This document shows, one piece after another, positions 18,171 through 22,046 of a stretch of 64,000 nt of DNA. Source of the DNA: Lachnospiraceae bacterium (lineage in GTDB: Bacteria > Bacillota > Clostridia > Lachnospirales > Lachnospiraceae); the NCBI GenBank assembly GCA_017469945.1, contig JAFUFI010000004.1, positions 62,001 through 126,000 on the forward strand, in the 5' to 3' direction. Position numbers and translations under genes: made by a program. The first letter of the stretch is position 1, and every line of letters begins with the position of its first letter. The notes below the pieces were generated by a model. That model saw only the letters and a program-made list of their open reading frames with translations, had not been told where the DNA came from and did no database searches.

Positions 18171-20324
18171 CTACATAGATTTTCTGTCGGCTATTTCCGC
18201 CATCTTTGCGCTGTTAAGCCTTGTGTCGCCGTGAACCCTCGAATAAGACAGGTATCCGTTCATCCTCTCAATCTTGGTAAGATTTCTGCTTCCGCATTTA
18301 GGGCAGACATCCATCTCAAGCTCTTCGTGGCCGCAGTCATCGCAATAAGCAAGAGACATATTTACGCCCTCGTAGAAACCAAGCTTCATAGCCCGTCTTA
18401 TAAGAGTTCTGATGGCTTCGATATTATAGCTTATAGGATATTTAACGTACTGGATCTTGCCGCCGTTAAACAGATCCCAAAATCTCTTTTCATAATCCTG
18501 TTTCTCAATGGGCGTAATGAGCTCGGAAACATGGCAGTGAAAACTGTTGGATACGTAGGGCTTATCCGATACGCCTTCCACGATACCGTAGATGTTTCTA
18601 AACTGCGTAATCTGCAGGCCGCAAAGATTCTCCGCCGGCGTTCCGTAAATCGCGTAAAGATTTCCGTCCGCTTCCTTAAACTCCGAGACTCTCTTGTTTA
18701 TATGCTCCATAACTTCAAGAGCAAAAGCTCCGTCCTCTACGAGGGATTTTCCGTTATAAAGCTCCTGAAGTTCATTAAGGGCCGTTATGCCGAAAGAAGC
18801 GGTAGCCACCTTTAGGATGGGCTTTATCTTGTCGTGCAGCCCTAAATGGCCTCCGTAAAATCCTCCCTCGCAGTAAGCAAGAGGGTTTGTGGAAGCCGTC
18901 ATCTCCCCAAGGTATGCGTATGTCCTTATATGGATCTGACGGATCATCTCAAGATAATAATCAAGTACGGTATAAAAATCCTTGTTTTCTTTTCTTGCTT
19001 TTGCAAGGATCATCGGAAGGTGAAGGGATACAACACCTATATTAAAACGTCCTATAAATACTGGCTCATCGGAATCATCCGCCGGGTGAATCCCTCCTCT
19101 TTTAAAGTAAGGCGAAAGGAAGGCTCTGCATCCCATAGGAGAAATTACCTGACCGTATTTTTGATAGATCGATGCAACATATCCTTCTCCGGAAAGAGAA
19201 AGCCAGTCGGGGTACATTGACCTTGAGGAGCACTCTACTCCCGCTTCAAATACGTCTTCAAGAGGGCATCCTTTTCCGTGAAGTTTTTCATCGTAAAGGA
19301 AAACTATCTTCGGGAAAAGAACAGGCTTTTTATGCCCTTTCTTTCCTTGTCCGTTTTTACGAACGTTAAGCATGGTAATAGCCGCAAGCTTCTCAAAACG
19401 GCTCTGTCCGAGGCCTATCGTCATCGTAATAAACGGGTAATCTCCGCGGCTCGAAGCTACGGTATTAAACTTGTACTCCCAGCCCTGAAATCCCTGTTCA
19501 AATTCTTTAGAGATATCTTCAAAAGCTGTTTTATCCGCAAGATCGTCCGGCACGCCAAGTCTTTGATACTTGGCAAGGTATTTGTTAAAAGACTTCTGGG
19601 CAAAGGGCTCCAGAATCTTATCAACACAGCTTATCGTAAATCCTCCGTACTGCTGGCTGGCAGCGGAAAGGATGATATCACCCATAACGTCAAAGGCTAC
19701 ATCCAAGGTCTTAGGTTCGTTATACCAGACATTTCCCATCTCAAAGCCGCCCTTTAAGACGCTTTCAATATCAAAGAGGCAACAGTTCATGGTATCACGC
19801 CTTGCAGACATATCGTGTATATAGATATAACCGTCGTTGTTGGCCTGAATCTCTTCCTGCGTCATAAAAAACTTTTGATAAAGCTGACGGTTGAGCTCGT
19901 TGAATATAAGGCTCCGCCTTGTACTGACAAGAGCCGAATCCGTATTGGAATTCTCCTTGTCGCCGATGTACATTATGGACTGGCTTTTGCGGTACACATC
20001 ATCAAGCATATGGATGAAATCCTGCTTGTAATTGCGATAATCCCGATAGCTTTTTGCAACAGCGGGATTAACCGACTCAAGAGCTCCTTCCACGATGTTA
20101 TGCATAAGTGGAATATGAATTTCGTCTGCTCCGCTATCATCGACTCTTCCGATAACGTACTTGCAGATGTTTTCTTTATCTGTTTCCGAAAAAGTGACCA
20201 TCGCTCTGTATGCACTTTTCTGGACGGCATTTATAACCTTTGTCACATCAAAGGCAACCTTTGTACCGTCTTTTTTAATAATATATACTTCTTTTGCAGG
20301 CTTATATTTTTCGTTATATTCCAT
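18171..20324 (-). CDS. nrdD: Anaerobic ribonucleoside-triphosphate reductase NrdD (class III)
   Basis: Reduces ribonucleoside triphosphates under anaerobiosis with a glycyl radical. It carries an N-terminal ATP-cone (KKDGTKVAFDVTKVINAVQKS, about 18-38, discontinuously conserved), a reductase barrel, a zinc ribbon near the C-terminus (CDDCGHEELEMDVCPKCG, four cysteines), and a C-terminal RVHGDTRLN loop where the radical glycine is expected. The 717-residue length is normal. The ATG has GGAG upstream. A 21-bp tandem repeat lies just 5' of the gene and may be its operator. Presence of only class III enzyme here fits a strict anaerobe. Confidence 0.96.
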   Translation of the reverse strand: MEYNEKYKPAKEVYIIKKDGTKVAFDVTKVINAVQKSAYRAMVTFSETDKENICKYVIGRVDDSGADEIHIPLMHNIVEGALESVNPAVAKSYRDYRNYKQDFIHMLDDVYRKSQSIMYIGDKENSNTDSALVSTRRSLIFNELNRQLYQKFFMTQEEIQANNDGYIYIHDMSARRDTMNCCLFDIESVLKGGFEMGNVWYNEPKTLDVAFDVMGDIILSAASQQYGGFTISCVDKILEPFAQKSFNKYLAKYQRLGVPDDLADKTAFEDISKEFEQGFQGWEYKFNTVASSRGDYPFITMTIGLGQSRFEKLAAITMLNVRKNGQGKKGHKKPVLFPKIVFLYDEKLHGKGCPLEDVFEAGVECSSRSMYPDWLSLSGEGYVASIYQKYGQVISPMGCRAFLSPYFKRGGIHPADDSDEPVFIGRFNIGVVSLHLPMILAKARKENKDFYTVLDYYLEMIRQIHIRTYAYLGEMTASTNPLAYCEGGFYGGHLGLHDKIKPILKVATASFGITALNELQELYNGKSLVEDGAFALEVMEHINKRVSEFKEADGNLYAIYGTPAENLCGLQITQFRNIYGIVEGVSDKPYVSNSFHCHVSELITPIEKQDYEKRFWDLFNGGKIQYVKYPISYNIEAIRTLIRRAMKLGFYEGVNMSLAYCDDCGHEELEMDVCPKCGSRNLTKIERMNGYLSYSRVHGDTRLNSAKMAEIADRKSM

Positions 20325-20340: not shown

Positions 20341-20382
20341 CGTTAACTAAGTTTTCTAGTACGTTAACCTAGTTTCCTAGTA
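20341..20382 (-). repeat. Two 21-bp tandem repeats upstream of nrdD (candidate NrdR-type operator)
   Basis: Unit 1 (20341-20361) and unit 2 (20362-20382) match at 18 of 21 bases and are exactly two helical turns apart, 17-58 bases before the nrdD ATG. Each unit on the minus strand contains a dyad of the type CTAG-N4-CTAG (second copy CTAG-N4-CTTAG). Paired, in-phase dyads before nrd genes are the known arrangement of NrdR boxes, but the bases differ from the best known consensus, so the regulator is an inference. Confidence 0.6.
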
Positions 20383-20391
20383 TGTAATATG

Positions 20392-20857
20392 AAACCTCGG
20401 GCCTAGGCTACATATGCTATTTTCTGCGCGAAGATAACGCTCCGTCGAAATGTTCCTCGAATTTCTACGCGCCTGCTAAAATTGTCTCTGGAGGGGAGAC
20501 AATTTTTACGCATTCGCTTAGAACTTCGGGACAGATTTCTCCTGCGCTAAGTGCATCTTCCAGATTGCGCATAAAACAGCATATGCACCCTCTCCCTCGA
20601 GTTTATGATAACTCAAGGCGCAAGTGCGGTAAGTTTGGTATCTGAGCGGGTAGATGGAGCACTTAGCAAGAGTCGCGTGCGAAAATCGGTCCCTGCGATA
20701 TTGTTCGAGCAGCTCGCCATGATGAGGCGAGCGTCGCGAGTTAAAGCAGGGCGATTTTGCCTTTAGCAAAGCGACTCGAGCTTAGTAGCGGAATCGTAGC
20801 GAGGAACCAACTTGCCGTAATTGCGCCGTGAATTATTATAAATGAGGCCCGAGACTT
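20392..20857 (-). ncRNA. Gene-free, highly structured intergenic island (candidate structured RNA)
   Basis: No credible gene fills this 530-base gap. Arms that pair by eye and are all mutually compatible: 20396-20404 with 20845-20853; 20452-20459 plus 20465-20469 with 20795-20807; 20478-20488 with 20496-20506; 20546-20554 with 20659-20667; 20565-20570 with 20618-20623; 20670-20676 with 20771-20777; 20682-20688 plus 20691-20696 with 20746-20758; 20712-20718 with 20726-20732. Several flanking C-A mismatches of the plus strand become G-U on the minus strand (545/668, 598/615, 395/854, 394/855), so a minus-strand RNA is favoured. The island begins eight bases after the upstream aminotransferase stop codon. 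It could instead be a miniature mobile element. Not matched to a known family. Confidence 0.55.
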
Positions 20858-20861
20858 ATGA

Positions 20862-22046
20862 CTACGCAAGCACACCGCTGGAAGCGATGATGTTTACTGC
20901 CTCCTCGATAACAGGAACGGGCAAAACAAGCGCAAAGCGGACATGACCCGCACCTAAAGATCCGAAGCTGCTACCCGGTGTGCAGAGCACTCCCGTCTTT
21001 TCAAAAAGCTCCATTACGAAGCGAACATCATCTTTTCCGTATTTCTCAGGGATTGCCGTCCATGCAAACATAGATCCCTGGCTTCTTTCGAATTTCCATC
21101 CGATATTGGTAAGACCGTCGCAAAGTGCATTGCGTCGCTTCTCGTATTCCTTGCACTGCTCCTTTACACAATCATCAGGTCCGGTAAGGGCTGCAATTGC
21201 CCCATACTGTACAGGAAGAAAGATGCCGTAATCGATCTGGCTCCTAAGGCGCTTAAAAGCCGCCACAAAATCCTTGTTTCCGACTACAAAAGACATTCTC
21301 GCTCCCGTGTAATTAAAGGACTTTGATAATGAGTAGAACTCAACTCCGACTTCCTTTGCACCTTCAAAAGCAAGGAAAGACTTTCCTATCTTACCGTCGT
21401 AAACAATATCCGAATATGCATTATCGTGTATGACTAGGATCTCATTCTTTTTAGCCCAGGCAATAAGCTCCTCGTAAAATGAATCGGGAGCACATTTGCA
21501 GACAGGATTTAATGGATATGAAACAATGATGGCTTTTGCCTTTTTAGGAGAACCCTTACCGTAAAGCTTTTCAATCTCTGAAAGGTCAGGAAGATATCCC
21601 TTTTCTTTGTAAAGCTTATAAGGCTTTAAATCCGCTCCTGCAAGAGAAGGGCCGATTGAAAATACAGGATATCCGGGATCAGGTACAAGGACAATATCAC
21701 CGGGATTAGCAAAAGTAAAAGCAATATGAGTAATGCCTTCCTGAGATCCGTAAACGCTCATGATCTCATCTTTTTCAAGGCTGACACCATATCTTTTTGA
21801 ATACCTGCAGATCACAGCATCAATAAGTTCCGGGATATCGATAAGGGAGTACTTGTAATTGGCAGGGATCTTTGCCGCTTCCACTAAAGCATCAATGATA
21901 TGCTTCGGAGGTTCAAAATCAGGAGTGCCTACCGAAAAGTTAAAAACCTTTCCACCCGCTTTTTCCCTTTCGATCTTTTTCTCGTTCAAAACCTGAAAGA
22001 TACCCGCCTCGTAGTCTTTCATCCTCTGTGCTAATTCGATGGTCAT
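20862..22046 (-). CDS. Class I/II pyridoxal-phosphate aminotransferase
   Basis: Fold-type I aminotransferase resembling the LL-diaminopimelate/methionine aminotransferase branch. The 394 residues include VYGSQEGITHIAF (cofactor phosphate region), PDPGYPVF, VIHDNAYSDIVYDG with the aspartate-tyrosine pair, the Schiff-base lysine in SLSKSFNYTGARM, and RFALVLP with the substrate-carboxylate arginine. The motif that is usually YPNNPTG reads YPLNPVCKC, an unusual substitution next to the active site. The start has GAAAGGA upstream. It follows the WYL regulator by 23 bases. The substrate cannot be fixed from sequence; DapL-like or general amino acid roles are possible. Confidence 0.85.
   Translation of the reverse strand: MTIELAQRMKDYEAGIFQVLNEKKIEREKAGGKVFNFSVGTPDFEPPKHIIDALVEAAKIPANYKYSLIDIPELIDAVICRYSKRYGVSLEKDEIMSVYGSQEGITHIAFTFANPGDIVLVPDPGYPVFSIGPSLAGADLKPYKLYKEKGYLPDLSEIEKLYGKGSPKKAKAIIVSYPLNPVCKCAPDSFYEELIAWAKKNEILVIHDNAYSDIVYDGKIGKSFLAFEGAKEVGVEFYSLSKSFNYTGARMSFVVGNKDFVAAFKRLRSQIDYGIFLPVQYGAIAALTGPDDCVKEQCKEYEKRRNALCDGLTNIGWKFERSQGSMFAWTAIPEKYGKDDVRFVMELFEKTGVLCTPGSSFGSLGAGHVRFALVLPVPVIEEAVNIIASSGVLA

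Follow-up and report, generated by a model that had tools for sequence, protein, structure and literature searches.

An intergenic island upstream of nrdD is probably a member of a MITE-like palindromic repeat family of rumen Lachnospiraceae

The window analyzed here, a 64,000-nucleotide stretch of the 2.62-Mb draft genome of a Lachnospiraceae bacterium (G000), contains at 20392-20857 an island that is, in our assessment, quite probably a two-module member (modules A and B within a closing inverted repeat) of a genus-restricted, noncoding, MITE-like palindromic repeat family of rumen Lachnospiraceae. The initial annotation had offered a mobile miniature element as one of its readings, with exact copies at unrelated sites and target duplications as the observation pointing to it; we found both related copies at unrelated sites and empty orthologous sites, which together support that reading. 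The upstream neighbor of the island is an aminotransferase gene (20862-22046, minus strand), and its downstream neighbor is nrdD, the gene for anaerobic ribonucleotide reductase (18171-20324, minus strand), whose product is 97% identical to the NrdD of the rumen metagenome-assembled genome (MAG) RUG13622 (G006); the remaining near relatives of this NrdD are mostly from Lachnospiraceae MAGs. As described earlier, the island is gene-free: no annotatable gene lies between the aminotransferase gene and nrdD, and the sole open reading frame, of 83 amino acids, is a chance one, leaving no credible coding capacity, as in MITEs.

Architecture and fold of the island

The island folds far better than shuffled controls on both strands. 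For 20380-20861, the minus-strand fold has an energy of -193.8 kcal/mol (shuffles, -135.1 +/- 6.3; z = -9.3) and the plus-strand fold one of -199.5 kcal/mol (z = -8.8), a stability that no shuffle reached on either strand; comparable stability on both strands is expected from a palindrome. Ensemble pairing probabilities upheld the closing helix of the eight-helix map proposed earlier, whereas the detailed map proved partly wrong. The closing helix is real and comprises 13 bp, with the left arm of the closing inverted repeat, which has a CTCGGGCC core, at 20392-20404 and the right arm at 20845-20857, as found in the ensemble fold and, for the left arm, by direct reading as well. Among the five wobble pairs that had been noted, 395/854 and 394/855 were recovered, with minus-strand probabilities of 0.72 and 0.46, respectively, whereas 545/668, 598/615, and 563/625 had a probability of 0.000 on both strands, their bases pairing elsewhere or remaining unpaired. 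The wobble support claimed for the minus strand fails: of the 168 pairs in the minimum-energy fold, the minus strand has 7 as wobbles and the plus strand 8, which leaves no strand signal.

Inside the closing helix, two long imperfect hairpins, B and A, lie side by side, and self-comparison aligned island positions 20-260 (A) and 258-469 (B) with their own reverse complements at 65-66% identity each. Hairpin module B occupies 20409-20587, as placed by self-comparison and fold, with its tip at 20478-20506; further copies of B are found at L009, L124, L126, L154, and L174 and in the composites of genome G009, and among these copies the sequence of the tip stem varies while its complementarity is kept. 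Hairpin module A, placed by self-comparison, model matches, and fold, occupies 20602-20842. Its core, modeled by R1, lies at 20672-20762 on the minus strand (row L001:1848-1938 of alignment A2; R1 match G000:C21:82673-82762) and carries two nearly invariant motifs on that strand, the 5' motif AACTCGCRACG at 20732-20742 and the 3' motif CTGCTCRRACA at 20702-20712.

Between the island and nrdD, direct reading of the sequence identified a tandem repeat of two ~21-bp copies of GTTAACYWAGTTTYCTAGTA (20342-20383). These copies are missing in G006, the closest relative, where the gap from the island to the start codon is only ~30 nt. Judged by eye only, the tandem repeat looks like GTTTAACGTACTAA within the terminal repeat of G009 described below.

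Distribution, orthologous sites, and element ends

A search of the island against its own genome returned, besides the island's own palindrome, nine to about 10 partial matches elsewhere (contigs C15, C17, C19, C21, C23, and C27), and BLAST matches among 59 genomes were confined to G000 and 10 others, all of the same genus. Within that genus, an A-tip pattern identified 53 cores in 13 of 31 genomes, with zero for the reversed control, and the covariance model R1 of the A core gave 67 matches in 14 of the 31 genomes and none in the other 17, with up to 15 divergent copies per genome. The copies diverge in both sequence and length and lie in intergenic sites, adjoining unrelated genes. A stricter core pattern matched 0 of 397 Lachnospiraceae genomes (366 of them from other genera), which is a partial test: with its anchors required to stand 14 or more bases apart, the pattern overlooked the shortest tips, among them the window genome's own; it was then corrected for the genus and IMG/VR searches. 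IMG/VR contained no match with either core pattern, original or corrected, and the plasmid collection contained no match to the whole island.

The modules A, B, and C are hairpins that occur in differing combinations, and sub-families with different outer stems have the same interior; in G009, two A types (L144 versus L143/L145) are joined to one and the same B module, with outer repeats that are similar. Several individual elements have features of their own. At L009 (~830-1000), a third hairpin type (GCCCGACTTATCATGATAATTTCAGCA ... TGCTGAAATCATTCATGACAAGCCGGGC) is joined to hairpin B, and this ~490-bp composite has long, nearly matching end repeats. The A element that precedes a glpK-like gene (L015 850-1250, G000:C19) is reduced by an internal deletion to its basal stem, the tip being gone; the corresponding site carries a complete, oppositely oriented A in G029 and an A+B composite in G009. 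Lastly, L010 and L013 in G000 and L135 in G029 bear extra hairpins beside the A tip, on one side only, forming a hairpin within a hairpin.

Copies thus dispersed are accompanied by presence and absence among relatives, as in MITEs. At the aminotransferase-nrdD site, G006 has an island that is 92% identical and in the same orientation, so the insertion took place before the window's species and RUG13622 diverged, whereas in L045 and L046 the two genes stand in the same order ~20 nt apart. At the L011 site, the flanking genes are separated by 48-132 nt in nine relatives, as opposed to 319 nt in G000. Elements are present at several orthologous sites in many species, which means that the family is in part old and was inherited vertically; this counts against the MITE-like reading.

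Comparison of orthologous sites showed elements that agree in orientation at some (nrdD, L010/L125/L155, L127/L138, L128/L157, and L140/L141/L194/L198) and inverted relative to their flanks at others (L009/L126, L012/L129, L014/L165, L015/L134, L135/L160, and L140/L166), with the G013 sites in this comparison aligned on one flank only. Between G000 and G006, the ~175-bp element of L012/L129 retains ~99% identity yet is inverted precisely at its base, GTTTGC...GCAAAC, within flanks that are ~90% identical, and the ~490-bp composite of hairpin B and the third hairpin at L009/L126 is likewise flipped. Whether they arose by in-place inversion or by reinsertion at the same site, these flips are DNA-level events.

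Terminal inverted repeats are clear in G009 (AATTGTAGTTTAAC...). This genome has an A+B composite of ~565 bp, pieces of which, 95-100% identical, are found at many contig ends, the whole being on no single contig. The common ends of the composite are AATTGTAGTTTAACGTACTAA on the left and TTAGTCAGTTAAACTACAATT on the right (~21-bp terminal inverted repeats), and TA lies directly outside four of five left and four of six right ends, no copy having both ends on one contig. Contigs broken inside an element are the outcome expected of recent identical repeats, and these observations support recent transposition of the composite in the G009 species. The window copy is older, and its closing inverted repeat, CTCGGGCC/GGCCCGAG, differs in sequence from the G009 terminal repeats. 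In G006, the island ends read ATTAA|CCCCGGGC...GCCCGAGG|ATTAA, where the ATTAA at both ends may be a short duplication, an arrangement that is suggestive only; the window island itself is without a clean target duplication. A short intergenic stretch elsewhere in G009 (L186 ~1500-1550, G009:C36) contains the end-repeat-like pieces GTAAACTACAGTTT and ATTAAACTACAA with no element between them and is possibly an excision remnant.

Covariation, the A core, and a possible route of spread

In an alignment of 49 distinct A cores, pairing holds in 92.0% of cells (99.7% in the tip helix), percentages that lean toward structure, as the stems were picked while viewing the same alignment. The covariation score is 0.324; shuffles give 0.106, none of the 500 attaining the observed score, and sliding the partner columns gives no more than 0.057. 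Covarying pairs, which the initial annotation had proposed seeking in homologous islands, are therefore present, but the G-U intermediates on one strand that would accompany them in an RNA are absent: counted relative to the commonest pair, the A-core stems show only Watson-Crick changes, with 123 changed-and-paired cells of the both-side type and 0 of the one-side (G-U) type, a split with no obvious dependence on the choice of stems. In a control with SRP RNA (RF00169), drawn from 25 genomes of this genus, 46 cells were both-side and 68 one-side (G-U type); the SRP alignment itself served to predict the structure, so the two tables differ in method, but the contrast is large. Moreover, among 44 sequences of the longer A hairpin, G-T (40) and C-A (46) mismatches are nearly equal. 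A strand leaning in the raw mismatch counts (a C-A excess in A and a G-T excess in B) was dropped, because the A excess vanishes when counted by aligned stem column and the independent copies of B are too few.

The exclusively double Watson-Crick changes, unlike those of SRP RNA, point to homogenization of the arms at the DNA level. Template switching in replication is reported to homogenize inverted-repeat arms and invert spacers (PMC8604942), as well as to create multi-base compensatory changes (PMC8794818). Between the nrdD islands of G000 and G006, the A tip has been swapped as a block in both arms (CTCGCC...GGCGAG versus TTCACGC...GCGTGAA), and the differences outside the tip are scattered single changes.

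Over the same 49 divergent A cores, no variation is seen in 31 columns, among them most of the asymmetric AACTCGC(R)ACG and CTGCTC(RR)ACA, and some of these stretches are unpaired. Since such columns are not explained by the passive drift of a parasite, and since the core is common to elements with different outer stems, the alignment suggests that the A core may be under some selection, most simply as a putative enzyme-binding site.

In the MITE-like reading, the copies would owe their spread to a transposase that works in trans on the outer inverted repeats. This enzyme would be Tc1/mariner/IS630-like, as expected from the G009 ends with TA outside most of them; the lasting complementarity of the arms, and the occasional flipping of elements, would come from recombination between these arms or from template switching, at the DNA level. 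If transcribed through, the island would give a ~460-nt hairpin pair between the aminotransferase gene and nrdD, as a side effect rather than the reason for its existence. A local effect of the island on nrdD transcription is possible.

No transposase with matching ends was found, and a scan of G009 for the ends with up to 3 mismatches returned element ends only. The genomes are drafts broken at these very repeats, which makes the absence of a full transposon weak evidence, and we accordingly use "MITE-like" and not "MITE." An IS630 (DDE_3) transposase was considered as the mobilizing enzyme and rejected, as it occurs only in G009 and G013 and has differing ends (CTAGTAT...). In G013, an intact-looking IS630-type transposase gene with these CTAGTAT... 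ends lies at one end of a 6.6-kb contig (G013:C67; L240 1-1300), the other end of which carries an A core (G013:C67:6354-6443). A Y1/TnpA-REP protein was rejected as well, since its distribution does not track the cores: of the 13 core-bearing genomes 5 have long (>200 amino acids) Y1 proteins, as do 3 of the 18 core-free ones, and the copy-rich G009 and G021 have none. In the 31 genomes, no integron integrase matched above the cut-off, and no cassette array was seen.

Alternative readings and known repeat systems

The failure to find a matching-ended transposase, the want of a clean target duplication at the island, the invariance of the A core, and the varied outer stems around one interior, which is the reverse of ordinary MITEs, all count against the MITE-like reading. 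In a minority explanation, hairpins A and B would function, as single-stranded DNA or as cruciforms, as sites for a dedicated protein, in the way that TnpA-REP recognizes REP hairpins and an integron integrase attC sites, and the family would spread or flip via the folded strand instead of double-stranded terminal repeats. It would account for (i) invariant asymmetric motifs inside a covarying stem, (ii) a tip helix so completely paired by strict Watson-Crick changes, (iii) flip points exactly at the hairpin base, and (iv) a core kept while the outer repeats vary. We nevertheless regard it as unlikely, given that Y1/TnpA-REP-type proteins do not track the core, that neither an integron integrase above the cut-off nor a cassette array was seen, and that the G009 composites have ordinary-looking terminal repeats beside TA. 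Just as tentative is the related idea of a new kind of mobile DNA-hairpin element served by an enzyme still to be named, with an invariant asymmetric core that would be recognized as folded DNA within a continually renewed Watson-Crick hairpin. If so, a single core would serve elements with unrelated outer arms, which could come back to the same intergenic sites and invert in place.

A large ornate structured RNA on the gene strand, of the ROOL, GOLLD, HEARO, OLE, or raiA kind, was the reading favored at first, and the very stable fold, the strong A-core covariation, and the invariant loop motifs are what such an RNA would display. We now consider it very improbable. An Rfam search with these or any other models gave no match at the gathering or E <= 5 threshold; the plus strand folds equally well; the near-equal G-T and C-A mismatches have no strand preference; the one-side G-U changes so frequent in the SRP RNA control are absent; up to 15 divergent copies occur per genome; and the two orientations at the same sites do not fit a conserved strand-specific RNA. 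A long cis-regulatory leader of nrdD was another earlier suggestion, and the island does precede nrdD immediately, on that gene's strand, and is kept in G006. As a conserved feature, however, such a leader is excluded by the ~20 nt found in its place within the same gene order at L045/L046; given also that copies adjoin unrelated genes and that the TATAAT within the closing region is not conserved in G006, this reading is scarcely credible.

The MITE-like family, in turn, carries a warning for RNA discovery, namely that a strong fold combined with strong covariation can arise from a palindromic DNA repeat, and the contrast between both-side and one-side changes (123/0 here and 46/68 in SRP RNA) suggests a simple test to tell a DNA repeat from an RNA. 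The family also offers many copies for following arm homogenization, flipping, and module swapping across closely related species. In the open-access literature searched, we found no paper describing a MITE family in this group, which does not prove that none exists; the island family could not be matched to any described family, although its kind is known. What sets it apart, and is unusual, is the invariant hairpin core behind varying ends, the strict renewal of the arms, and the flipping between species.

Correia elements are bacterial MITEs with IS630/Tc1-mariner-type ends, and BOX repeats are modular. BOX, RUP, and SPRITE are known kinds of intergenic repeats (PMC3049150). RUP, a pneumococcal MITE with IS630/Tc1-mariner-type ends, is like the island family short, noncoding, and intergenic with inverted terminal repeats, and RUP-type MITEs are likewise genus-restricted and without a transposase of their own (PMC3049150); TA stands at most G009 ends here. 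In contrast to them, the present family has sub-families with different ends around one invariant core, long nested hairpins, and no insertion sequence found with matching ends. The BOX repeats of Streptococcus pneumoniae are also intergenic, lineage-restricted, extensively structured, and considered parasitic (PMC3049150), whereas the modules here, compared by description and not by sequence, are hairpins of ~200-250 nt with flipped copies at the same site. The stem-loop sequence families of bacterial genomes, of which a survey of 40 older genomes described 92, are similarly repeated, folding, and mostly intergenic (PMC2267715), a likeness again of description and not sequence by sequence. 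Finally, the literature on REP/BIME elements and TnpA-REP describes palindromic intergenic DNA in many copies, as here (PMC8266576, PMC2817692), but gives REPs a length of 20-40 bp (PMC3733652) compared with ~200-250 nt per hairpin in the island family, which Y1/RAYT-type genes do not track.
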